Assembly (NCBI RefSeq): GCF_013623775.1
Contig: NZ_JABFAM010000009.1
Location: 124,001-188,000 of the forward strand
Source: Rufibacter sp. XAAS-G3-1
GTDB lineage: Bacteria; Bacteroidota; Bacteroidia; Cytophagales; Hymenobacteraceae
Length of the DNA: 64,000 bases
Direction of reading: 5' to 3'
Shown here: one piece after another, positions 6,334-54,195 of the stretch
Layout: each line of letters begins with the position of its first letter
Numbering within the stretch: the first letter of the stretch is position 1
Notes under the pieces: generated by a model
What the model was told of the DNA's origin: nothing
The model's input: only the letters and a program-made list of their open reading frames with translations
Databases searched by the model: none
Program-made: the position numbers and the translations under genes

Positions 6334-7581
6334 TCAGGCTCTGATCTGCCCATCTCCTTTGATTACCCATTTATAGCTGGTGAGTTCTTCCAGGCCCATG
6401 GGCCCGCGGGCATGAAGCTTTTGGGTACTGATCCCTATTTCGGCCCCTAACCCGAACTGCGCGCCGTCTGTGAAGGCGGTGGAGGCGTTGGCGTACACGG
6501 CGGCGGCATCTACCCGGTTCAAAAAAGTCTCAAGGGCCTGGGTGTCTTCCGCAATGATGGCTTCGCTGTGTTTGGAGCTGTAACGGGCAATGTGCTCCAG
6601 GGCCGCAGACAAACTGGGCACCGTCTTTACGGCCATCTTCAAAGACAGAAACTCCGTCCCGAAATGCTCTTCCTGGGCCAGGTGCAGTAACTGGGGAGGA
6701 TACGATTGCCCCAGCGCGGCGTAGGCAAAGAGATCTGCGTAGAGTTCCACCTCGTAATAAGCCAGGGGAGCCAGCAAAGCGGTCAAATCGGCCAGCCGGT
6801 CTTCATGCACCAGCAGGCAGTCCAGCGCGTTGCAGACACTCACCCGGCGGGTTTTGGCGTTGTGGATGATCTTCTTGCCTTTCTCCAGATCTCCTGAGGC
6901 ATCAAAATAGGTATGGACAATGCCGGCCCCGGTTTCAATAACGGGTACTTTGGCGCTTTGCCGCACATAGTCTATCAAGGCCTGACTGCCTCTGGGAATG
7001 AGCACGTCTACGTAGCCAATGGCTTGCAACAGGGCTTCGGTGGCTTCGCGTTTGGCGGGCAACAAAGTAGCCAGATGAGGGTCTAGCCCATGTTTCTCCA
7101 ACACCCGATGGATTACGGAGACAATGGCCCGGTTAGAGAACTCGGCATCACTGCCGCCCTTCAAAAGACAGGCGTTCCCGGTTTTCAGACAAAGGGCAAA
7201 CACGTCAAACGTGACGTTGGGCCGGGCTTCATAGATAATGCCCACCACGCCCATGGGCACCCGCACCTTGGAAATCTGCAGCCCGTTGGCAAGTTCCTTC
7301 TGCAGGAGCACCTCGCCCAGCGGAGAAGTAAGATTCGCTACATTTTCCAGATCAAGGGCAATGCTTTGGAGGCGGGCTTCGGTCAGCAGCAGGCGGTCAT
7401 GCTTGGGATCATCCGGAGACATACGGGCCAGGTCTTTCTGGTTTTCAATCAAAAGAAAGTCTTTCTGCGCGAGGGTTTCGGCGGCCACTTCCCGTATGAC
7501 GGCGTTCACCAGACCAGGGGCAAGTATCCCCAACGCTTGGCTGGCCAACTGGGTGTTTCTGAATAAATCTTCGTACTCCAT
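6334..7581 (-). CDS. proA: Gamma-glutamyl phosphate reductase (glutamate-5-semialdehyde dehydrogenase)
   Basis: A 415-residue NADPH-dependent enzyme reducing gamma-glutamyl phosphate to glutamate semialdehyde, the second step of proline synthesis. The catalytic Cys is C250 in [14 protein letters not shown]. The phosphate and NADP regions include [10 protein letters not shown] (118-126) and [12 protein letters not shown]. The C-terminal [17 protein letters not shown] is typical. Length matches the family. It lies 93 bp downstream of proB on the same strand, so the pair is probably one transcript. Confidence 0.96.
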
Positions 7582-7674
7582 TGTTTAAGGTATAGAAGGT
7601 AAGACCTGCAGGTAGCACATTACTGCAAAGCGTTTTACCGGTGTTTTTCTGAATTAAAGCTTAAAACGGGAAGG

Positions 7675-8766
7675 CTACTCCAGCTCCTGAGAAAGGAACA
7701 GGTAATCATAGTGCACCAGCGGTTTTTGCTTTTGCTGCCCCAGCCGTTCAAGGGCTTTCTCAGAACCGTATTCGGCAATGCCGAACCCGATCTGGTGGTT
7801 TTGCTCATCTACCAGTTTCACAATATCGCCTTTCTGGAAATGGCCCTCAATCTGCACTACGCCTACCGGCAGCAGGCTTTTGGCCACTTGTGAGCCGCAC
7901 AAGGCAGTCTTGGCCCCTGCGTTGATGCGCACCACCCCCTTGGCGAACGTGCCCGAATGGGCAATCCACTTTTTCTTGCCCGAAGCTGATTTATCTGGCA
8001 GGAAACGGGTGTTCTCAATTTCTCCGTTCAGCAGCCTTTGCAGTACGTTTTCGGTTTTGCCGTTGGCGATGTGCACCGCAATGCCTAGTTGCGCTACTTT
8101 ACGCGCCATGTGGCACTTGGTGATCATGCCGCCGCGGCCAAACTGCGACCGCTGCGTGGTGACAAAAGAGGCAAAACCGGTGGTGGAAGCATCAATGTCT
8201 TTGATGACGGTACTAGCGGGATCTTTGGGGTCGCCGTTGTAGATGCCGTTCACGTTGCTTAGGATCAGGAGCGCATCAGCGTTGAGCATGGAGGCGATCA
8301 GCCCGGCCAGTTCGTCGTTGTCGGTGAACATCAACTCGGTGACGGAGATCACGTCGTTTTCGTTGACAATGGGGATGACGTTGTTCTGCAGCAGTACCTG
8401 GAAACAGTTTTTCATGTTGAGGTAATGGCCCCTATCCCGGAAATCTTCTTTGGTCACCAACACCTGCGCGCAGACCAGCTGGTGCTGGCTGAAGAGATTC
8501 GCGTAGGTATGAATCAGTTTCACCTGCCCCACCGACGCCAGCAACTGCCGGGAACTGACGGCATCGGTCTTCTCAGAGATGCGGATAAGGCTTCTCCCCG
8601 CTGCCACCGCCCCCGAGGACACCACAATGACTTCTTTCCCTTCTTTCTTCAACCCCGAGATCTGCTCCACCAAATGCTGCATCCGCGCCTCATCGGGCAT
8701 TCCGTTTTCCTGCGTGAGCACATTGGAGCCAATCTTGACAATGATCCTTTTATAACTGAATGGCAT
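7675..8766 (-). CDS. proB: Glutamate 5-kinase with C-terminal PUA domain
   Basis: A 363-residue kinase phosphorylating glutamate at the gamma-carboxyl, the first and feedback-regulated step of proline synthesis. The amino-acid kinase domain (about 1-260) shows IVKIGSNVLT, VSSGAVAAG, IPIVNENDVIS and ILSNVNGIYNGDP. Residues about 275-360 form a PUA domain (AHSGTFAKGVVRINAGAK, VGVVQIEGHFQKGDIV). It precedes proA on the minus strand and heads the operon. The upstream 340 bp carry the promoter and a terminator for the next gene. Confidence 0.96.
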   Translation of the reverse strand: MPFSYKRIIVKIGSNVLTQENGMPDEARMQHLVEQISGLKKEGKEVIVVSSGAVAAGRSLIRISEKTDAVSSRQLLASVGQVKLIHTYANLFSQHQLVCAQVLVTKEDFRDRGHYLNMKNCFQVLLQNNVIPIVNENDVISVTELMFTDNDELAGLIASMLNADALLILSNVNGIYNGDPKDPASTVIKDIDASTTGFASFVTTQRSQFGRGGMITKCHMARKVAQLGIAVHIANGKTENVLQRLLNGEIENTRFLPDKSASGKKKWIAHSGTFAKGVVRINAGAKTALCGSQVAKSLLPVGVVQIEGHFQKGDIVKLVDEQNHQIGFGIAEYGSEKALERLGQQKQKPLVHYDYLFLSQELE

Positions 8767-29502: not shown

Positions 29503-30108
29503 ATGTCTACTACAGGCATCATCATATTAGCGGCTGGCTCCTCCTCCCGTTTAGGTCAGGCAAAGCAACAGCTTCTCTACAAAGGAAAAACGCTGCTGCA
29601 ACATGCGGTGCAGACGGCCCTTGACACCGGCATAAAAAACGTCATAGTAGTGCTTGGGGCTAATTCTGAAAAATTCCTCCAACACCTACCGCTTTCACAG
29701 GTGCAAGTCGTCCAAAATCTGGGCTGGGCCGAGGGCATGGCTTCTTCTATCAGGTTAGGCCTGGCGGAACTGCAGAAGGTGGCTCCTCAAATTACCCAAG
29801 TTCTGTTCATGCTCTGTGACCAGCCCTTCGTCACCGCAGCTTTATTGAACGAGCTGGTTCAGAAGAAAGAGGAAACAAAAAAAAAGATAGTCGCCTGCTC
29901 CTATGCAGATACCTTAGGGGCCCCAGTCCTCTTTGACCTAGCCTTTTTCCCTGAACTTCTACAGTTGAAAGGCCAGGAAGGAGCCAAAAAAATACTGTCC
30001 AAACATCCCGTAGACATCGCACCCCTTTTCTTCCCATTAGGAGTAGTAGACATAGACACCCCTTCAGATTACACCTTTCTTATACAGAAGGCTAACGCCA
30101 TAGACTAA
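29503..30108 (+). CDS. mocA: MocA-type molybdopterin nucleotidyltransferase
   Basis: A 201-residue MobA-like nucleotidyltransferase with IIILAAGSSSRLGQAKQQLL (GxSxRxG-x-K loop) and LFMLCDQPFV, the Asp of which binds the metal. MocA transfers CMP from CTP to Moco, giving the cytosine dinucleotide form used by PaoABC-type enzymes, while MobA uses GTP. Its place between the XdhC-like gene and the oxidoreductase favours MocA, but the base specificity is inferred from context. Confidence 0.88.
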   Translation: MSTTGIIILAAGSSSRLGQAKQQLLYKGKTLLQHAVQTALDTGIKNVIVVLGANSEKFLQHLPLSQVQVVQNLGWAEGMASSIRLGLAELQKVAPQITQVLFMLCDQPFVTAALLNELVQKKEETKKKIVACSYADTLGAPVLFDLAFFPELLQLKGQEGAKKILSKHPVDIAPLFFPLGVVDIDTPSDYTFLIQKANAID

Positions 30109-39243: not shown

Positions 39244-40434
39244 ATGATATCAGTAGCGGAAGCCTTACAACGGGTGTTGCAACACAAAGCAGAACTGGCC
39301 ATTGAAGAAGTGGATTTGCTCCAATCGGTGGGCCGGGTGCTGGCGCAGGAAGTCATCGCTGATCGGGATTTCCCCCCTTTTGACCGGGTCACCATGGACG
39401 GAATTGCCATCAACACCCAAGATTTCGCATCCGGCACCCGGTCTTTTCCCGTTGCACAGATCCAGGCCGCCGGTTCTCCGCAGACCTCCTTATCCCAAGC
39501 CGGGCACTGCCTGGAAGTGATGACCGGGGCCATGCTCCCCCTAAACACAGATGCGGTGGTGCGGTACGAAGATTGCGACCTACAGAACAACGTAGCCAGC
39601 GTGCTGCTAGAACAAGTAGTATCTGGGCAGAACATCCATCGGCAAGGTTCAGACAAGAAAGCCGGTGAGGTGTTGCTAACTTCAGGTGTTGTTATCACTC
39701 CCGCTATCATAGGCACCTTGGCTTCGGTAGGTCTAGGAAAAGTGAAGGTGTACCAAGTCCCCAAAGTGGCCGTCTGCTCCACCGGCGATGAACTGGTTGA
39801 AGTACACGCAAGTCCCCTCCCGCACCAGATCAGGAGATCCAACGCGTTTATGCTGGCCGCCGCCTTGCGGCAGGAAAACATTCAGGCAGCCCTTTTTCAC
39901 CTACCGGATGAGCCCGAGATCATGCGGCAACGTCTGGCTTCCATCATTGCCGACCATGACGTTTTGATTTTGTCAGGGGCCGTGTCTAAAGGGAAGTTCG
40001 ATTTTCTGCCGCAGGTGTTGGAAGAATTGGGTTTTTGGGCTGTTTTCCATAAAATAGCCCAAAAACCGGGCAAGCCCATGCTGTTTGGGATGCTGCCAGA
40101 GCAGAAGGTGGTGTTCGGCCTGCCGGGAAATCCGGTCTCTACGTTCGTTTGCTACCAGCTTTTCTTCCGGCCCTGGCTGAGGGCTTCTCTGAAACTACCC
40201 CAGGTAGAAACCCAAGCCCAATTAACTCAGCCGATCACGTTTAAACCAGCCCTCACGTATCACGTGCCGGTGAAGCTGCAAAACGTTAACGGCACGTTGA
40301 AAGCGACTCCCATCGCCACCACCGGATCTGGGGATTTGACCAGTCTTCTGGACGCAGATGGCCTATTGAGTTTTCCGGCGGAGCAGGACACGTTTGCCGA
40401 AGGAACCGCTTTTCCCCTCACCTTGCTTTCTTAG
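39244..40434 (+). CDS. moeA: Molybdopterin molybdenumtransferase
   Basis: A 396-residue enzyme inserting molybdate into adenylylated molybdopterin. Motifs: MDGIAINTQDF, EVMTGAMLP, STGDELVE, SGAVSKGKFDFLPQVL, KPGKPMLFG and GLPGNPVSTFV. A family 1 palindrome (40030-40067) lies in frame and encodes residues about 263-275 (FWAVFHKIAQKP), which still match the family. No mogA/moaB homologue is in the window to make its AMP substrate, so that function must be elsewhere. Confidence 0.95.
   Translation: MISVAEALQRVLQHKAELAIEEVDLLQSVGRVLAQEVIADRDFPPFDRVTMDGIAINTQDFASGTRSFPVAQIQAAGSPQTSLSQAGHCLEVMTGAMLPLNTDAVVRYEDCDLQNNVASVLLEQVVSGQNIHRQGSDKKAGEVLLTSGVVITPAIIGTLASVGLGKVKVYQVPKVAVCSTGDELVEVHASPLPHQIRRSNAFMLAAALRQENIQAALFHLPDEPEIMRQRLASIIADHDVLILSGAVSKGKFDFLPQVLEELGFWAVFHKIAQKPGKPMLFGMLPEQKVVFGLPGNPVSTFVCYQLFFRPWLRASLKLPQVETQAQLTQPITFKPALTYHVPVKLQNVNGTLKATPIATTGSGDLTSLLDADGLLSFPAEQDTFAEGTAFPLTLLS
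40030..40067. repeat. Palindromic box (family 1) inside moeA
   Basis: GGTTTTTGGGCTGTTTT facing AAAATAGCCCAAAAACC. Sequence and architecture match the intergenic boxes. It is in frame and codes for the conserved segment just before the KPGKP motif. Confidence 0.75.
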
Positions 40435-41799: not shown

Positions 41800-42786
41800 C
41801 TACCACTGCTGATGCACGGTGGGTCTGATGTACTGGTCGTAGATTCTGCGGACACCTTCCATTTGCGCTGGGCTTAGCGTAGGCAAAGCGGCGGCGGCCA
41901 GGTTGGCGCTCACTTGCTCGGGCCGGGAAGCACCCGGAATCACCGTACTTACCTCGGGGAACATGAGCACCCAACGCAGTGCCCAGGGCGCTAACGGTTC
42001 CTGCCCCGGGAAAAGTCTTTTTAGTTCTTCCACGGCCTCCAGGCCCAGGTCAAAGTCTACGCCGGAGAAGGTTTCGCCTTTGTCAAAGGCCTCGCCGTTG
42101 CGGTTGAACGCGCGGTGATCCTCGGGATTGAACGTGGTCTGGTGCGACATTTTACCGGTGAGCAAGCCGCTGGCGAGGGGCACCCGCACAATGAGGCCCA
42201 CGTTGTTTTCTTTGGCGGTAGAGAACAACTGCTCACTCGGCTTTAGCCGGAACATGTTGAAGATAACCTGCACGGTGGTCACGTTGGGGTAGCGCATGGC
42301 CATGAGGGCCTCGTCTACCAATTCTACGCTCACGCCCAGGTTCCTGATTTTGCCCTGCTCCTTCAACCGGTCAAACACCCCGAAGATCTCGGGGCGGGTG
42401 TACACTTCGGTGGGTGGGCAGTGCAACTGGATCAAGTCTATGGTTTCCAGCTTCATGTTGCGGAGGCTCTGCTCTACGTAGCCAGTCAGTTTTTCAGGGG
42501 AATACCCCTGAGGGACATGCGGCTGGATCTGGCGTCCGCATTTGGTGGCGACAAAAACCTCTTCGCTGCGGCTTTTGACTACTTTGGCTACGGCGGCCTC
42601 GCTGAGGCCGTCGGAGTACACATCGGCGGTGTCAATGAAATTCACGCCTGCGTCAATGGCCGAGTTTATGATGGTTTCGGCGGTTTGCTCGTGGAAAGGC
42701 TCGCCCCAGCGGCCGCCTACCTGCCAGGTGCCCAGTGATATCTCTGATACGTTGAATCCGGTTTTCCCTAATGTTCTATAGTTCAT
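41800..42786 (-). CDS. Aldo/keto reductase
   Basis: A 328-residue NADPH-dependent oxidoreductase. The tetrad is visible as D and Y in FIDTADVYSDG, K in VATKCGRQ and H in IQLHCPP. It begins MNYRTLGKTGFNVSEISLGTWQVGG, the YajO/YghZ-like clade. Substrate unknown; typical for small aldehydes or ketones. It is followed on the same strand side by another AKR start region (42959-43852), so the two are adjacent and co-directional with 172 bp between, holding a family 1 box. Confidence 0.93.
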   Translation of the reverse strand: MNYRTLGKTGFNVSEISLGTWQVGGRWGEPFHEQTAETIINSAIDAGVNFIDTADVYSDGLSEAAVAKVVKSRSEEVFVATKCGRQIQPHVPQGYSPEKLTGYVEQSLRNMKLETIDLIQLHCPPTEVYTRPEIFGVFDRLKEQGKIRNLGVSVELVDEALMAMRYPNVTTVQVIFNMFRLKPSEQLFSTAKENNVGLIVRVPLASGLLTGKMSHQTTFNPEDHRAFNRNGEAFDKGETFSGVDFDLGLEAVEELKRLFPGQEPLAPWALRWVLMFPEVSTVIPGASRPEQVSANLAAAALPTLSPAQMEGVRRIYDQYIRPTVHQQW

Positions 42787-42958: not shown

Positions 42959-43852
42959 TTACCGGTGTTGCTCGTACACGGTTACCGGTATTTGCCTTTG
43001 CAAAGAACGGATGGTGTCTGGTGAAAGCGCGGGTGCATTGGCGGCGGTTAAGGCTTGTGCCAGGTGATGCTTGGTTCTGATGCCCAGCACCGCCGAGGTT
43101 ACTGCCGGATGGTGCAACACGTATCTCACCGATGCCTGGATGGCGTTTTCCTCTCCTGCAATTGCCTTGAGTGCTTCGGCGGTTTGGGTCACTTCTACCG
43201 CTGTGTGGTTGAGGTACGGTTTAGGGAGCTTGCCCAGTAAAAGGCCCTGGGCCAGGCTGCCCCGCGCCAGCACCCCAATCTGGTGTTGGTGCAGGAGATC
43301 CAGCATTTCTTCCTCGGGACGGCGATCCAGCAGGCTGTACTGCATCATGACGCTCACCAGGTTAGACCGCTCCACGTACTCGCGTATCACGTTGGGCCGG
43401 ATGGACGAAATGCCGTAGTGCCTGATTTTGCCCTGTTGCTTTAGTTGTTCAAAGGCTTCAATGGTTTCGTCTATGGGGTCTTCTATGGTGCCGCCATGCA
43501 GTTGGTACAAGTCAATGTAATCGGTTTGGAGCCGACGGAGGCTCTGCTCCACGGCTTCCAGAAGGTAGGCTTTGGTGGGGTTCCAGTCCCAGCCGCTGCC
43601 GTCTGGCCGCCACTGGTTGCCTACTTTGGTGGCGATGATGACCTGATCCCGTTTTCCCTTGAACGCTTTGCCCACCGTTTCTTCGTTCCGGCCTTTCTCG
43701 TACAGGTCGGCGGTGTCAAAGAAGTTGAATCCCGCCTCCTGGGCCTGGTGCAGCAAACGGAGGTTCTCCTCTTCAGACCCAGTTAAAGACATGCACCCAA
43801 AACTGATTTCGCTTACCTGTAAGTCTGAGGTTCCTAGTACTTTATAGTTCAT
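42959..43852 (-). CDS. Aldo/keto reductase
   Basis: A 297-residue reductase with the family tetrad in FFDTADLYEKG, IATKVGNQW and YQLHGGT. It begins MNYKVLGTSDLQVSEISFGC. Only about a third of positions look identical to the neighbouring reductase, so this is not a recent duplication. It lies upstream of the other AKR on the minus strand and just downstream of a membrane protein gene. Confidence 0.92.
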   Translation of the reverse strand: MNYKVLGTSDLQVSEISFGCMSLTGSEEENLRLLHQAQEAGFNFFDTADLYEKGRNEETVGKAFKGKRDQVIIATKVGNQWRPDGSGWDWNPTKAYLLEAVEQSLRRLQTDYIDLYQLHGGTIEDPIDETIEAFEQLKQQGKIRHYGISSIRPNVIREYVERSNLVSVMMQYSLLDRRPEEEMLDLLHQHQIGVLARGSLAQGLLLGKLPKPYLNHTAVEVTQTAEALKAIAGEENAIQASVRYVLHHPAVTSAVLGIRTKHHLAQALTAANAPALSPDTIRSLQRQIPVTVYEQHR

Positions 43853-45370: not shown

Positions 45371-45435
45371 TTTTCGATAACTGCGGCAAAACAGGATGGG
45401 TGAAATCCTTATTGGAAATTAACTGAAGCACTAAC

Positions 45436-45534
45436 CTCCCCTTTGTCATCCTGAAAGGAACTTGTGGGTGAACTAGAATTGCTTTAAAGCAAGGTTACTA
45501 TAGATGGCCCACACAATCCTTTAAGGGACATTAA
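45436..45534. repeat. Family 5 inverted element
   Basis: Ends CCTCCCCTTTGTCATCCTG and CCTTTAAGGGACATTAAGAGG, with AACTTGTGGGTGAACTAG and GGCCCACACAATCC inside. Same architecture as 17004-17100. Confidence 0.65.
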
Positions 45535-45552
45535 GAGGCTTTTTTAAAAAAG

Positions 45553-45595
45553 AAGGGTCAAAGTGCGTGCTTTATAAACACGCACTTTGACCCTT
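45553..45595 (-). terminator. Bidirectional terminator hairpin between convergent genes
   Basis: A 17-bp perfect stem (AAGGGTCAAAGTGCGTG and complement) with a 9-nt loop. On the minus strand it is followed by CTTTTTT, ending the 1109-residue fusion gene; on the plus strand GTTTTCC follows. It sits 25 bp beyond the fusion gene stop. Confidence 0.85.
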
Positions 45596-45619
45596 GTTTT
45601 CCTCTGGCACTGGTGCTGC

Positions 45620-48600
45620 TTAGAATTGACCTAAAGCAACAATGTAATCTCTGCTTCCATCGGTGACCCAAGCGTCTAGCTGGGCGGGGTCTTTCATCTG
45701 CTGCCCGCGTTGGCGCGGCACGGCAATGTACCCGCACTTAACATCCGGCAATGCCGACATGTCACTCCACAGTTTTTCAATCTGGGCTACCGGGTAAATG
45801 TCTTCCTGGCCGTGTCCCCAACGGTATTTCACGTCTTTGATGGTGACATACGTAGGCATGCGGTGCGCCACACTTCTTACCGCCTTGGCTAATCGCGCTT
45901 CGTCCCCGCGAAGATCTGCCCGAGTAAGCCCGAACAGCGCCAACAATGGATCTATCTGAATCCAAGTGGTCATGGTGTTGTAGTAGCTTAGGTTCAGTTC
46001 GTCTTCCTCGCGGGGCTGGGCCAATCCCTCGAGTAGACGAACTTTGCCGTTCACGCGGGCCAATCCGCCCCCGCGGTCTTCAATGCGACGCGCCACCACT
46101 TCAAACGTAAGCACGTTGCCGGAATCCAGGTGATGGCCTAAAGCATCTGGATGAATATCAGCGCCCAGCGTATCAATGTTGTGCAGCATGATGGTTTCCA
46201 GCCGCGGATTCTCCTCCAGAATCTGTGCCAACACCCCGTTCCTGAGCATGTTAGATACTTCGTACCAGTGCCCTAAGGGCGAGAACCGCTGCGAGGCAAT
46301 GTTGTCTGCGTAGTCAGAACCTTCACCCTTACTCTTGGCCCAGTCAATCATAGACCTTCGGCCAGATTCCCGGACTTTCTGCTTGTTTTCGTCCAGCGTT
46401 TCCTGCGGCATTTCTTCCCATAAGAACCTAAGATCGCGCTCCATAGGCACATACCGCTGACCAATAGAACGGCCCGTAGACAAATACACCGGCCCTTCGT
46501 AGCCATACTTCTGGGTCAGCTCCAACTGTTTTTTGATGGGCTCATGCGTGAGGTAACTGGTGGCCACAATGTGCGGCAGTTTGGCTCCGTATTTAGCAGA
46601 GACCGCTTTGGTTTTGGCCAAATGGATTTCCAGGAAACTGCGGTGCACGCCTTCTACCTCCACAAATGGATTCAAAGCTTTGATTACCCCGGCCCCTTTT
46701 GTCCAGCGGCTACCAACCCCGGCGGCCAAACTCAACACGCCCACTTTGCCGGCTTTAATGGCCGCTTCACCCGTAGCCGTAGCGTTGGTGAGGCTTTCCA
46801 ATTTGGCAATATCTGTAGGCTGCACGTCTTCAATGGAAGTCTCATTAGGCAGACGGTTGCGCGACAAGCCGATGTAGCCTTTCTGTAGCTGCTCCCTGAT
46901 TTCTTCGTGCTGGATATAATCAAAGCCGTTTTCTTTTTTGATGCGGTCGGCTTTCTCGTTTTCATTGCTGCGCCCGCCCTGGCTAGACGGGTCAGATACC
47001 TTGAACAGATTGCTCACGATGGTGCGCAGCAAAGGATACGCCACGTTGTTCTCTCCGCAATGCGTGGTGAAGAAATCAATCTCAGCCCTTCGCACATAAG
47101 AAATGCTCTGCGGGTCTTTCTTCACCAGGTCAGACACGTGAATGGCATAGTATTGCTCCGGCATCATCGCCTCGTTGCCTACGTGCAGATACGACCACGA
47201 CCCTTTGTTGTTGATGTTCCAGTTATATACCACCGGTTCCATGGCAAACGGCAAAGAATCAGAAAGTTCTGCTTTGGTGGCGCGTAGAATTTCCAGCACC
47301 CGGCCCTTGTAGTCTTCGTACTGGTCTGGGTTCACAAACATGCCCATGCCGCCGCCCGACATGCCGCCCAGCATCAAGAAGCCCAGGTAATTCTCCCCGA
47401 ACTCTTTTTTCGCCCTGCGGATAATCTCTTCCGTGAAATGCGTGGATGCCCACGGAATAATGGTTTTGATGGGCTTTTCGAAATTATGGGCAGTATTCGC
47501 CGCTAACTTCCGGATGTCGCCTTCTCTGAGGGCCGCCAGAATGTTGTCAAATACCAGGTTGGTTTGTTGACGCGCTTCCCACTCGTTCTCTCCCCGGAGC
47601 AGGTATTTCTCGGTTACCATCTCCAGAATGGGCCCTACGTTGGAAGCCATCCCGCCGTGCATGAGCACCAGCGAGTTCATGAGTTTGTCGGCCATCTCGG
47701 GGTGAATCTCCTCGCCCTGCAACACGCGGTGCCTTGGCAACAACGTCCCGCGGCTAATGCCGAATTCCGGGTCGCCTTCCTCGGCAAACGTGCCCTGAAT
47801 GGCTTTGATGCCCGGCCAAACACCCCCAGAGTCCTGCCAGCCCCCGCCGGAACCGCCAATCCACTCGCCTAGAATGGCTCTAGAAGCGACTAATCGGCGT
47901 TCGCTTTCATCGAGTCCGCCCACCAGGTTCTTCGTCTGGCCGGTAGCCCGCATCAACAAGCTGATGATGGAACCCAACAGGTTGGTGGAAACGGCAAAGC
48001 GCGAACCCTTCGGAATATCATTCACGCGGGTCACCAATTCAATCCCCATGCCCGGTGCCACAATGCGGGCCAGAATATCGGGCAACGACTGGTTGGTGCC
48101 TTCAAACGAGGGCGGAATCAAGCCCGAGGCAATCACCCCGGCTTTCACCAGACTCAGGTAATCGTTCCCGAAGTTGAACAGGTCGTCCAGCTCGGTTATG
48201 TCTTTGGAAGTATTTAAGTCAATACTGGTCACCCGCAGCACCGGCTCCGGTATCACCCGCACATACGACTGCAACGGCGGCCGAATGTCTTTGTCGCGCC
48301 CGAACACGCCCAGGTTGATGGAGATGTTCAGCACCCTGGCACCCTCGGGATAATCCATGCCCAAAAAGAAGATATCTGACCACCCGCTGTGGGTTAAGTC
48401 CATGCGCACCGAGGTCTGCTCTTCCAGCACAGGGTAGAAAAGTGAGCTTTCCTGCCGCTGCAACAAAGCTGGGTGAATCTTGATAGGATGCTCTTCCTGA
48501 TGCCCTACCCTAAACATCCACTGGTTTCCTTTGCTGGAGCGCACGCTCTTGCGAACCTGGTTGGCCAATATTTGGAAAGACAGGTGGTGGTAGCTTTCGG

Positions 48601-48949
48601 CCAGTCCGCTGAACAAAGCGGCATTGGGGCCGTGCGTGTCTATCTCCTTTAAGAACGTAGTGATAGCGTGCTCAAATCGGCGGGCCAGCAAATCCTCAAA
48701 GCCCGCGTACGGAATCTTGCCGGTGGCCGGCGTCTCCGCCGACTCCATTAAGAAGAAACGGTAACCGGCGGCCAGAAAGAGAATGGCGCGTACTTTGTCG
48801 TATAAACTAGGGGTGGTTTTCCTGAAATCATCTAATTCCCGCAGTGCCTTGAAAAGCTCTCTGGTAGAAAGGCTCCGGCTCATCTGGAAAAACGAGCGGT
48901 TCCTCTCAGTAGGGTCAGTAGATGTAATGGTTTGTATAAAGATGTTCAT
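45620..48949 (-). CDS. GHMP (fucokinase-like) kinase - UDP-sugar pyrophosphorylase-like fusion, 1109 aa
   Basis: Two enzyme modules in one chain. The N-terminal part (about 180-640) has GHMP-kinase features of the L-fucokinase type: LPKGS-like loop IPKGSRFAVSTNLLG (312-326), GGGWQDSGGVWPGIK (368-382) and GGMSGGGMGMFV (528-539). The C-terminal part (about 730-1109) has a nucleotidyltransferase loop LSLAAGVGSRWTKGAGVIKA (739-758) of the UDP-glucose/UDP-GlcNAc pyrophosphorylase type, with HNIDTLGADIHP as a likely metal site. This suggests salvage: sugar to sugar-1-phosphate to NDP-sugar. The order is opposite to Bacteroides Fkp and plant FKGP. Residues 1-180 are helical and unassigned. It lies 60 bp downstream of the GalU-like gene on the same strand. 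Confidence 0.8.
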   Translation of the reverse strand: MNIFIQTITSTDPTERNRSFFQMSRSLSTRELFKALRELDDFRKTTPSLYDKVRAILFLAAGYRFFLMESAETPATGKIPYAGFEDLLARRFEHAITTFLKEIDTHGPNAALFSGLAESYHHLSFQILANQVRKSVRSSKGNQWMFRVGHQEEHPIKIHPALLQRQESSLFYPVLEEQTSVRMDLTHSGWSDIFFLGMDYPEGARVLNISINLGVFGRDKDIRPPLQSYVRVIPEPVLRVTSIDLNTSKDITELDDLFNFGNDYLSLVKAGVIASGLIPPSFEGTNQSLPDILARIVAPGMGIELVTRVNDIPKGSRFAVSTNLLGSIISLLMRATGQTKNLVGGLDESERRLVASRAILGEWIGGSGGGWQDSGGVWPGIKAIQGTFAEEGDPEFGISRGTLLPRHRVLQGEEIHPEMADKLMNSLVLMHGGMASNVGPILEMVTEKYLLRGENEWEARQQTNLVFDNILAALREGDIRKLAANTAHNFEKPIKTIIPWASTHFTEEIIRRAKKEFGENYLGFLMLGGMSGGGMGMFVNPDQYEDYKGRVLEILRATKAELSDSLPFAMEPVVYNWNINNKGSWSYLHVGNEAMMPEQYYAIHVSDLVKKDPQSISYVRRAEIDFFTTHCGENNVAYPLLRTIVSNLFKVSDPSSQGGRSNENEKADRIKKENGFDYIQHEEIREQLQKGYIGLSRNRLPNETSIEDVQPTDIAKLESLTNATATGEAAIKAGKVGVLSLAAGVGSRWTKGAGVIKALNPFVEVEGVHRSFLEIHLAKTKAVSAKYGAKLPHIVATSYLTHEPIKKQLELTQKYGYEGPVYLSTGRSIGQRYVPMERDLRFLWEEMPQETLDENKQKVRESGRRSMIDWAKSKGEGSDYADNIASQRFSPLGHWYEVSNMLRNGVLAQILEENPRLETIMLHNIDTLGADIHPDALGHHLDSGNVLTFEVVARRIEDRGGGLARVNGKVRLLEGLAQPREEDELNLSYYNTMTTWIQIDPLLALFGLTRADLRGDEARLAKAVRSVAHRMPTYVTIKDVKYRWGHGQEDIYPVAQIEKLWSDMSALPDVKCGYIAVPRQRGQQMKDPAQLDAWVTDGSRDYIVALGQF

Positions 48950-49009
48950 CTGCCTCTTGAATAAGCAATTAGGTGCGTATTGGATGCTCTCCTAACTTGC
49001 TGTAAAACC

Positions 49010-49960
49010 CTATTTTGTTTGACGTTGATTGGCTTCGGCCAGCAGCTCTACCATGGTGGTGAGCGTTTCATCGTGGGCTTTGCCCGCCAAACCTAGGGCA
49101 ATCTGCGCCTGCAGCAACCCTTGCTTTTTACTCAGGTCATAGCGGTTTCCTTTTACTTCCAGGGCCAGGTATTTCTCGGTAGAGGCCAGTTCCTGCAAGG
49201 CAGTGGTCAACTGCACGTTCTGGCTGCCGCTTTCAATCTGCGTTTGCAGCATAGGGAAAACCGAAGGCGTGAGCACGTGCATCCCGAAGAAGCAGAGGTA
49301 ATAGCCCGCCCGTAAACCCGGGGTTTGCAGTTCCAGTTCGGCGGTGCTCAATGAGGGTTTTTCAATGATTCTGTCTATCTGGTACACGCCTTTTTGGTTA
49401 GGCTGGTGCTTGCCCGTAAGGGTGCCGTAGCGGTGAATCTGGTGCTCAACGGTGGGGTTCACCGCCGAAACGGCGCAGCCTTCCTGCACCGCCAAACTGA
49501 TCAACTGGGCCGCACAACGCTGTTCAGCCAAACCAGACACGTACAAGTGATCACCCAATAACAGCAGGAAAGGCTCCTCTTTCACGAATTCACGGGCGCT
49601 GTACACGGCGTGGCCGTAACCCAAGGGTTCTTGTTGTTCTATGAATTGCAGACGCGTGCGCAGGTGGTCTACTTTATCGGCTTCTTCCTGGGCCCAGTCA
49701 GAGTTCTTGAACGAGTCCAGTAAGTTGTTCCGCAGCGAAGTGAATGCTTCCTGGTACCGCGGCCCATCGCCGGGGGCGCAAATCACGCAGATTTCTTCTA
49801 TACCGCTGGCAAAGGCCTCTTCGGCAATAATCTGGATGGCTGGTTTGGTTAGTCCGTCAATGTCAATGACGGGCAGCATGGCTTTTTGTACGGTATCGGC
49901 CACAGGATATAACCTTTCGCCACGGGCGGCAGCTGTGATGACAGCTTTTCTTATTTTCAT
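49010..49960 (-). CDS. GalU-like sugar nucleotidyltransferase
   Basis: A 316-residue nucleotidyltransferase resembling UTP-glucose-1-phosphate uridylyltransferases: KAVITAAARGERLYPVADTV then KAMLPVID, LLLGDHLYVS, and EKPSLS. The usual GLGTR loop is changed to ARGER, so activity or nucleotide choice may differ. It precedes the kinase/pyrophosphorylase fusion by 60 bp and is likely co-transcribed, which suggests a shared sugar-activation route, or one active and one regulatory nucleotidyltransferase. Confidence 0.85.
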   Translation of the reverse strand: MKIRKAVITAAARGERLYPVADTVQKAMLPVIDIDGLTKPAIQIIAEEAFASGIEEICVICAPGDGPRYQEAFTSLRNNLLDSFKNSDWAQEEADKVDHLRTRLQFIEQQEPLGYGHAVYSAREFVKEEPFLLLLGDHLYVSGLAEQRCAAQLISLAVQEGCAVSAVNPTVEHQIHRYGTLTGKHQPNQKGVYQIDRIIEKPSLSTAELELQTPGLRAGYYLCFFGMHVLTPSVFPMLQTQIESGSQNVQLTTALQELASTEKYLALEVKGNRYDLSKKQGLLQAQIALGLAGKAHDETLTTMVELLAEANQRQTK

Positions 49961-50277
49961 AGAAATGTTAGATAGCAGTGTTTTGGGGAATCAATAGAAT
50001 ATTCCAAGTGCTAATATAAGCTAATATAAGCCTCAGAAGCATGCATTGAGAGAAGATAAAAAGCGGATTGTGCCTCCAGGGCAAACGGAGATAAGCCTTT
50101 CTTCAGGCGGAAGGCGGTAGGTTTGGATGTTGCGTTGCTTCTACTTTGGTTTAATGGCTATTTTCTGAAAAGAAGCAAAAAACTGAAAAGCAATGCGTTG
50201 TATACTGAAAAGGCAAGGCAACAAAGCCCAGCTTTGACAGAGGGCAATTTAGAAGATACCGCAGGAGTAAGCAGGAA
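49961..50277. other. Intergenic region upstream of the nucleotidyltransferase pair
   Basis: About 317 bp. It holds a tandem AT-rich repeat GCTAATATAAGCTAATATAA (50012-50031) and a decayed family 1 box (about 50148-50186). The promoter for the minus-strand pair should lie in 49961-50060. Confidence 0.5.
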
Positions 50278-53319: not shown

Positions 53320-54195
53320 ATGGCACAGACACCAAAAACATATACCCCAACCTTCAGCCTTGGCGCAGATGTAACGGTAAACCGCATGGGGTACGGCGCC
53401 ATGCGCATCACCGGCGATGGCATCTGGGGGCCACCCAAAGACCGGGAAGAATGCCTACGGGTACTGCAGAAAACCGTGGAACTGGGCATTAACTTCATTG
53501 ACACCGCCGATTCCTACGGGCCCCACGTCTCAGAGGAACTCATCGCCGAAGCGCTTTACCCTTATCCCAAAGATCTGGTCATTGGCACCAAAGGCGGCCT
53601 GCTGCGCACCGGGCCTAACCAGTGGCCCATCAACGCCAAGCCAGGCCACCTCAAAGAAGCCCTGGAAGGCAGTTTGCAGCGCCTGAAACTAGACAGAATA
53701 GATCTATACCAACTGCACCGGGTAGACCCGGAGATTCCCTTTGAACAAACCCTGGAGTTTTTACAGGACGTGCAGGAACAGGGGCTCATCAAACACATAG
53801 GCTTGTCTGAAGTCACCGTAGAGCAGATACAGCAGGCGCAGAAATTTGTGGAGATCGTGTCGGTGCAGAACATGTACAGCTTTGACAACCGTAAATGGGA
53901 GGCCGAGCTCATGTACTGTGAAGACAATGCCATGGCCTTTATTCCGTGGTACCCGTTGGGCGGCGGAAACCTGAAAGCCCAGCAAACCCTGGATCAGATA
54001 AGCGCCAAGTACAATGCCTCCAACCACCAGATTGCCCTAAGCTGGCTTTTGCACCGTTCGCCCAACATTCTGCTCATTCCGGGTACCTCCAAGGTGAAAC
54101 ACCTGGAAGAGAATTTTCAGGCAGCCTCCATCCCCCTCTCTGAGGATGACTATGAAGCCCTGAACCAAATTGGCTCTGACACTTTCATAAGCTAA
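53320..54195 (+). CDS. Aldo/keto reductase
   Basis: A 291-residue reductase, third AKR in the window. The tetrad is in FIDTADSYGPH, IGTKGGLLR and YQLHRVD; the NADPH segment includes IPGTSKVKHLEEN. It begins with the motif LGADVTVNRMGYGAMRITG, of the YdbC/AKR13 style. Substrate unknown. It stands alone, followed by several repeats. Confidence 0.92.
   Translation: MAQTPKTYTPTFSLGADVTVNRMGYGAMRITGDGIWGPPKDREECLRVLQKTVELGINFIDTADSYGPHVSEELIAEALYPYPKDLVIGTKGGLLRTGPNQWPINAKPGHLKEALEGSLQRLKLDRIDLYQLHRVDPEIPFEQTLEFLQDVQEQGLIKHIGLSEVTVEQIQQAQKFVEIVSVQNMYSFDNRKWEAELMYCEDNAMAFIPWYPLGGGNLKAQQTLDQISAKYNASNHQIALSWLLHRSPNILLIPGTSKVKHLEENFQAASIPLSEDDYEALNQIGSDTFIS

Follow-up and report, generated by a model that had tools for sequence, protein, structure and literature searches.

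What is the role of a protein that carries a sugar kinase in front of a nucleotide-sugar pyrophosphorylase, and why is its gene paired with an altered relative of galU? This question is raised by a 64,000-nucleotide (nt) stretch of the Rufibacter sp. XAAS-G3-1 genome (here "the window," meaning the whole stretch that was analyzed), in which open reading frames (ORFs) for a fusion protein of 1,109 amino acids (45620..48949) and a GalU-like partner of 316 amino acids (49010..49960) were confirmed on the minus strand with 60 bp between them. We think it fairly probable that the two genes are a horizontally moving module by which a free sugar is converted to a nucleotide sugar, with the fusion as catalyst and the GalU-like subunit noncatalytic or nearly so. 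The kinase would phosphorylate the sugar at C1, after which the UDPGP half would couple the sugar-1-phosphate to a nucleotide, most likely uridine triphosphate (UTP), with release of pyrophosphate; the GalU-like protein, dead or nearly dead as a catalyst, would bind the fusion and hold or regulate it. The original prediction, made from the DNA alone, had proposed the activation of a sugar that it did not name, and our results are consistent with that proposal.

Domain order and folds of the fusion protein

The fusion consists of a helical N-terminal domain, an FKP-type GHMP kinase fold (residues 171 to 600; 47150..48439), and a UDPGP-type nucleotidyltransferase fold (residues 665 to 1109 plus the stop codon; 45620..46957), all on the minus strand like the other parts of both genes described below. 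The NCBIfam Fkp model aligned with residues 178 to 542 (E value of 1.3e-16; 59.6 bits, below its cutoff of 721), the N-terminal half also aligned with solved Fkp chains, and the C-terminal half matched Pfam UDPGP (PF01704) with 48.3 bits, over the curated cutoff of 22. Both the predicted order, kinase and then pyrophosphorylase, and the predicted UDPGP type of the second half were thus borne out. The AlphaFold2 model (predicted local distance difference test [pLDDT] of 88.2; predicted template modeling score [pTM] of 0.88) agrees: when it was compared with Fkp and UDP-sugar pyrophosphorylases, both halves fell on the expected folds, with FKP fucokinase matching residues 143 to 589 and UDP-glucose pyrophosphorylases matching residues ~665 to 1109. 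Model confidence was low at residues 747 to 753 (nucleotide loop) and 1043 to 1048 of the pyrophosphorylase half. The GHMP fold is present in the model; the GHMP kinase Pfam models, including PF00288, matched none of the 42 kinase-alignment members at an E value of 0.01.

The first 180 residues had been left without an assignment. Their sequence did not match the FKP linker (probability of 0.3 in 100), and sequence homology to that linker was rejected on this ground; in the model, however, residues 1 to 150 (48500..48949) form an all-helical domain. Structure alignment covered 446 residues with whole FKP versus 354 with the FKP kinase part alone, and the domain may be, by shape only, the counterpart of the FKP three-helix linker.

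A conserved kinase with a different phosphate loop

Residue counts for the fusion refer to 77 of the 80 best loci plus the window, and those for the partner to 66 loci (including L042, which is cut) plus the window; the sequences are related and not independent, so counts are given without P values. The alignments (A1 to A5) had 52, 47, 42, 42, and 48 rows. Active-site counterparts were named from the residue roles in the BfFKP kinase given in the consulted parts of PMC11982464. Alignment with BfFKP chains paired R592 with R182, W599 with W190, D601 with D192, D644 with D244, S719 with S321, E751 with E362, Q761 with Q372, and D762 with D373, and all eight are identical in 78/78 fusions. BfFKP S720 is replaced by threonine (T322) in all 78, and A900, another phosphate contact, has no placed counterpart.

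The phosphate loop (residues 312 to 322, IPKGSRFAVST in place of IPxGSGLGTSS; 47984..48016), which had been called degenerate, is instead a different loop that is invariant except at K314 and F318, reading GSR[FL]AVST in every fusion versus GSGLGTSS in both FKPs compared. Residues 161 to 400 had the highest share of columns that are at least 95% identical (102/240), versus 15/110 at the N terminus and 1/70 in the linker (601 to 670). Conservation of this kind would not be expected of an inactive or purely regulatory kinase, as the original prediction had suggested this one might be, whereas a changed sugar or donor would fit.

The kinase tree places the fusions next to the two FKPs, but support for this is weak (81/74), the stem to the nearest FKPs measures 3.04 changes per site, and the tree program flagged long branches; we therefore claim only that the fusion kinases form a separate clade. 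On their own deep branch, among heptokinase-like proteins, were two kinase-like open frames (L137 and L140; 461 to 463 codons) that keep GGWQD and are missing the usual loop pattern.

The pyrophosphorylase half

Twelve residues of this half (G744, G746, R748, K757, T797, H894, N924, D926, K1041, Q1056, E1058, and K1086) are identical in 78/78 fusions, among them the last position of the nucleotide loop (residues 741 to 757, LAAGVGSRWTKGAGVIK; 46679..46729). By the roles of the corresponding residues in UDPGP enzymes, we take the loop lysine K757, H894 of GH, N924 and D926 of NxD, and the C-terminal lysine K1086 to be UDPGP catalytic positions, K757 and K1086 being assigned by eye. N991 is asparagine in 73 fusions and serine in 5. 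Judged by these positions, the UDPGP half looks complete. The Fkp-type pyrophosphorylase domain PF07959, which is N-terminal in FKP, was matched neither in the fusion nor elsewhere in its own genome, where the fusion was also the only UDPGP or FKP-type pyrophosphorylase found; the UDPGP search matched 0 of 14 control genomes, with the fusion as the sole positive control.

The GalU-like partner

The partner has a GalU fold and reads ARGER where GalU has GLGTR, the loop given in the consulted part of PMC4643126; its altered loop, AAARGER...QK, spans residues 10 to 26 (49883..49933). An altered GalU-like gene paired with the fusion had been predicted, and it is found in the window and in relatives. 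The same prediction treated it as an enzyme, and here we differ, since the partner is probably a pseudoenzyme that has lost its own activity. TIGR01099, the GalU equivalog model, scored it at 150.6 bits, below the curated cutoff of 326.8, and scored the partners of 19 fusion carriers in the order sample described below at 136 to 161 bits. The partner loop was readable in 73 of 78 loci (L035, L042, L044, L055, and L066 are cut by a contig end), and none of the 73 has GLGTR; its threonine is replaced in all 50 loop-bearing partner rows. Outside these rows, L051 has leucine for the loop arginine and L046 has arginine for the loop lysine.

One clade of partners has lost the loop, with 7 to 8 residues missing from it, and still keeps its pairing with the fusion. 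Five of its rows were ambiguous in the first scoring and deleted on direct reading; L076 and L079 are deleted but lie outside the tree. The "deleted" score of L042 is a contig-end artifact, and counting it would give two state changes on the tree. Because a whole clade lost the loop and kept the pairing, the shared role cannot depend on catalysis by the partner. Columns at least 95% identical made up 19% of the partner versus 32 to 42% of the fusion catalytic regions.

Pairing, distribution, and genomic context

In the protein search, 7,998 of the 7,999 scored candidates (those with the most shared words) passed; the 120 matches listed were 1,078 to 1,130 amino acids long and 78 to 93% identical, and those with a name in their source were mostly called UTP--glucose-1-phosphate uridylyltransferase, otherwise UDP-N-acetylglucosamine pyrophosphorylase or hypothetical protein. 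Among species-representative genomes, at least 582 relatives were confirmed, of at least 592 pattern stretches. The best 80 of these loci, many from metagenome-assembled genomes (MAGs), are 54 to 94% identical and nearly all full length, and are recorded as Bacteroidota, Hydrogenedentota, Planctomycetota, Verrucomicrobiota, Kiritimatiellota, Lentisphaerota, Chloroflexota, Acidobacteriota, Armatimonadota, Ignavibacteriota, and Fibrobacterota; some MAG records have unlikely names (L023 and L063) and may be wrongly binned. Since relatives from several phyla keep the fused architecture at these identities, it is no accident.

In 78 of the 80 loci, the fusion gene is preceded on its own strand by a GalU-like gene; in the other two (L020 and L021) the contig is too short on that side to hold one. 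The gap has a median of 26.5 nt over the 78 loci, with ≤100 nt in 61 and an overlap in 10. In a Planctomycetaceae MAG (L070), partner and fusion are separated by two unrelated ORFs (6819-7966), and this gap of 1,197 nt is the only one above 240 nt. Pairwise distances of fusion and partner correlate with an r of 0.88 (40 shared rows), as coinheritance would give. In a phylum sample, 7 of 247 genomes matched, six with the fusion (own genome included) and one with FKP; in an order sample, 19 of 192 matched the fusion (G315 and G371 in part only), and the galU model found the partner class in exactly the same 19, the next score being 94 bits.

The pair sits in the window between Mut7-C-like and 2'-5' ligase-like genes (names by eye). 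Among 29 relatives' loci around the Mut7-C-like gene, three (L095, L097, and L102) have the two flanking genes adjacent and the pair missing, a difference that corresponds to 45371..50277, where the ORF list has only the module's two genes. In four others (L106, L107, L108, and L121) the Mut7-C-like gene is next to the counterpart of the window gene on the far side of the ligase-like gene. The pair is present between the flanking genes in L001 and L052, and the L095 genome carries the fusion at another place. One stop codon falls within the match or its frame in five Mut7-C-like loci (L096, L101, L103, L108, and L111). A single plasmid copy was detected (L155; Hymenobacter volaticus plasmid NZ_CP095065.1, 8001-11327), with the partner annotated beside it; the fusion copy, for which no gene is listed, aligns as four pieces and may be broken.

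Patchy spread, an empty site in relatives, and a plasmid copy are also what a mobile conflict or defense module using nucleotide-sugar chemistry would show, but we consider such a role extremely unlikely: its active-site conservation looks metabolic, and no neighbors are conserved. Viral carriage was rejected, since none of 61 viral stretches that matched the pattern was confirmed as a relative, and a defense role was rejected, with no PADLOC match.

We also consider it very unlikely that the module simply stands in for GalU as another supplier of UDP-glucose. No GalU exceeds the curated cutoff in the own genome or in 7 of the 18 other order-sample carriers, as replacement would predict, but such a GalU occurred in 11/19 carriers versus 15/173 noncarriers (relatedness not corrected for), the opposite trend, on which replacement was rejected. 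Moreover, a sugar-1-kinase would be superfluous for UDP-glucose, and the module is patchy (6/247 genomes of the phylum sample). The own genome encodes a galactokinase and RmlA over their cutoffs, two ManC-like genes (by eye), and two further nucleoside diphosphate (NDP)-sugar synthase-like genes below all the cutoffs listed.

Elsewhere in the window, a MobA-like nucleotidyltransferase frame (29521-29895; L088) and a MoeA-like gene (39244-40434), both named by eye, suggest a molybdenum-cofactor region, and three aldo/keto-reductase-like genes (by eye) lie within 13 kb (41800-42786, 42959-43852, and 53320-54195).

Evidence against the proposal and its weight

Several observations weigh against the proposed sugar-activating module. 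In all 78 fusions, the BfFKP loop glycines G715 and G717 are replaced by R317 and A319, the sugar-site residue Thr602 by I193, and Met645, in the modeled base pocket, by L245; because of these substitutions, the sugar and the phosphate donor may differ from those of FKP. Position 831, which by eye lies near what we take to be the uracil-reading glutamine of UDPGP enzymes, is Q in 58 fusions, L in 19, and K in 1, so use of UTP is uncertain and the choice of nucleotide is open. Neighborhood conservation, surveyed in the best 80 loci of several phyla, was limited to the pair; the next commonest ORF cluster occurred in 9/80 loci, and thus the neighborhood names no sugar. Finally, Bacteroidota partners, including that of Rufibacter, keep the loop arginine and lysine and may keep some activity.

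The altered loop and the long stem would also fit a kinase fold that no longer phosphorylates a sugar with adenosine triphosphate (ATP), using another donor instead or acting as a sugar sensor through which the UDPGP half is controlled. We judge this rather unlikely because the fusion retains D373 (the general base) as well as R182, E362, and S321/T322, and a mere sensor would not require the kinase to be the most conserved part of the fusion. The PxGxGLGxS pattern, present in 15 of 23 other related kinases in the tree set, is missing in the remaining 8, so its change is no sure sign of lost ATP use.

If the Bacteroidota partners were active nucleotidyltransferases, the pair could make two nucleotide sugars, or one with a second nucleotide. 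Of the GalU site, all 50 loop-bearing partners keep Arg16, Lys26, Asp137, and EKP, and 46 keep Asp275; nevertheless, the universal loss of the GLGTR threonine, the loop-less clade that stays paired, and the partner's lower conservation make this quite improbable.

The proposal of a catalytic fusion held or regulated by its partner therefore keeps the order, the UDPGP half, the altered GalU-like gene, and, conditionally, the sugar activation of the original prediction, and parts with its inactive or regulatory kinase and its active upstream enzyme. The prevailing record name, UTP--glucose-1-phosphate uridylyltransferase, hides a kinase and a different pathway. If our proposal is correct, the fusion is a second way in which evolution has achieved sugar activation on one chain, its partner is a bacterial pseudo-nucleotidyltransferase subunit whose loop loss is traceable on a tree, and the pair might serve as a tool for producing UDP-sugars from free sugars; which sugar it would activate is a directly testable question. 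A bolder version, which we think improbable, is that a fused chain with a pseudo-nucleotidyltransferase constitutes a third independent kind of kinase/pyrophosphorylase, making an undescribed nucleotide sugar with an arginine-loop kinase that uses a non-ATP donor, possibly the pyrophosphate of its own second half.

Comparison with known systems

FKP (L-fucokinase/GDP-fucose pyrophosphorylase) uses ATP and GTP to convert fucose into GDP-fucose on a single chain. The fusion shares with FKP the kinase fold, most catalytic and sugar-contact residues, the placement of kinase and pyrophosphorylase on one chain, and perhaps, in shape only, the helical segment ahead of the kinase. It differs in its reversed order, its UDPGP-type pyrophosphorylase without PF07959, its loop (PKGSR[FL]AVST), isoleucine at the Thr602 contact, a partner gene of its own, and a separate long-stem clade. 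A single fusion event is favored for FKPs in PMC12732313, and the parts consulted do not mention a kinase-first architecture; we found nothing with this domain order in the open-licence PMC literature, and the consulted part of a paper on fungal fucose genes (PMC10481521) has no bearing on a kinase-UDPGP fusion. The zebrafish glucuronokinase/putative pyrophosphorylase (PMC3938481, consulted in part) is also a GHMP kinase fused to a nucleotidyltransferase, but there a bacterial-type, non-UDPGP nucleotidyltransferase comes first and the kinase second.

Compared with the eukaryotic UDPGP family (UDP-glucose pyrophosphorylase, UAP, and plant USP), the second half of the fusion sits behind a kinase and is 14 to 22% identical in structure alignments. 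Its loop is longer (by eye) and has a lysine preceded by Ile, Val, or Cys; at NTNN, which we take to be the sugar-side motif of UDPGP enzymes, the fusion mostly has N[TS][MNL]T.

For the partner, there are precedents in loop-altered paralogs of sugar nucleotidyltransferases that are presumed regulators. GMPPA has been proposed as a regulatory partner of GMPPB. GalF is a loop-altered GalU paralog thought to be regulatory, although an abstract calls its role contradictory (PMC4643126, consulted in part), and an NCBIfam model is named "GalU regulator GalF." Unlike in those pairs, the protein that the partner here would regulate, if any, is a UDPGP-type fusion from a different lineage, and the loop is gone in one clade.

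The plant recycling enzymes belong to the same two superfamilies as the fusion halves; to our knowledge, they are separate proteins, with a kinase of another branch and no pseudo-GalU. Plants recycle sugars by a GHMP sugar-1-kinase and then UDP-sugar pyrophosphorylase (USP), according to the parts of PMC3659416 consulted, and this is the two-step logic that we propose here. It is this recycling, together with the one-chain logic of FKP, that leads us to read the fusion as a route from sugar to sugar-1-phosphate to NDP-sugar.
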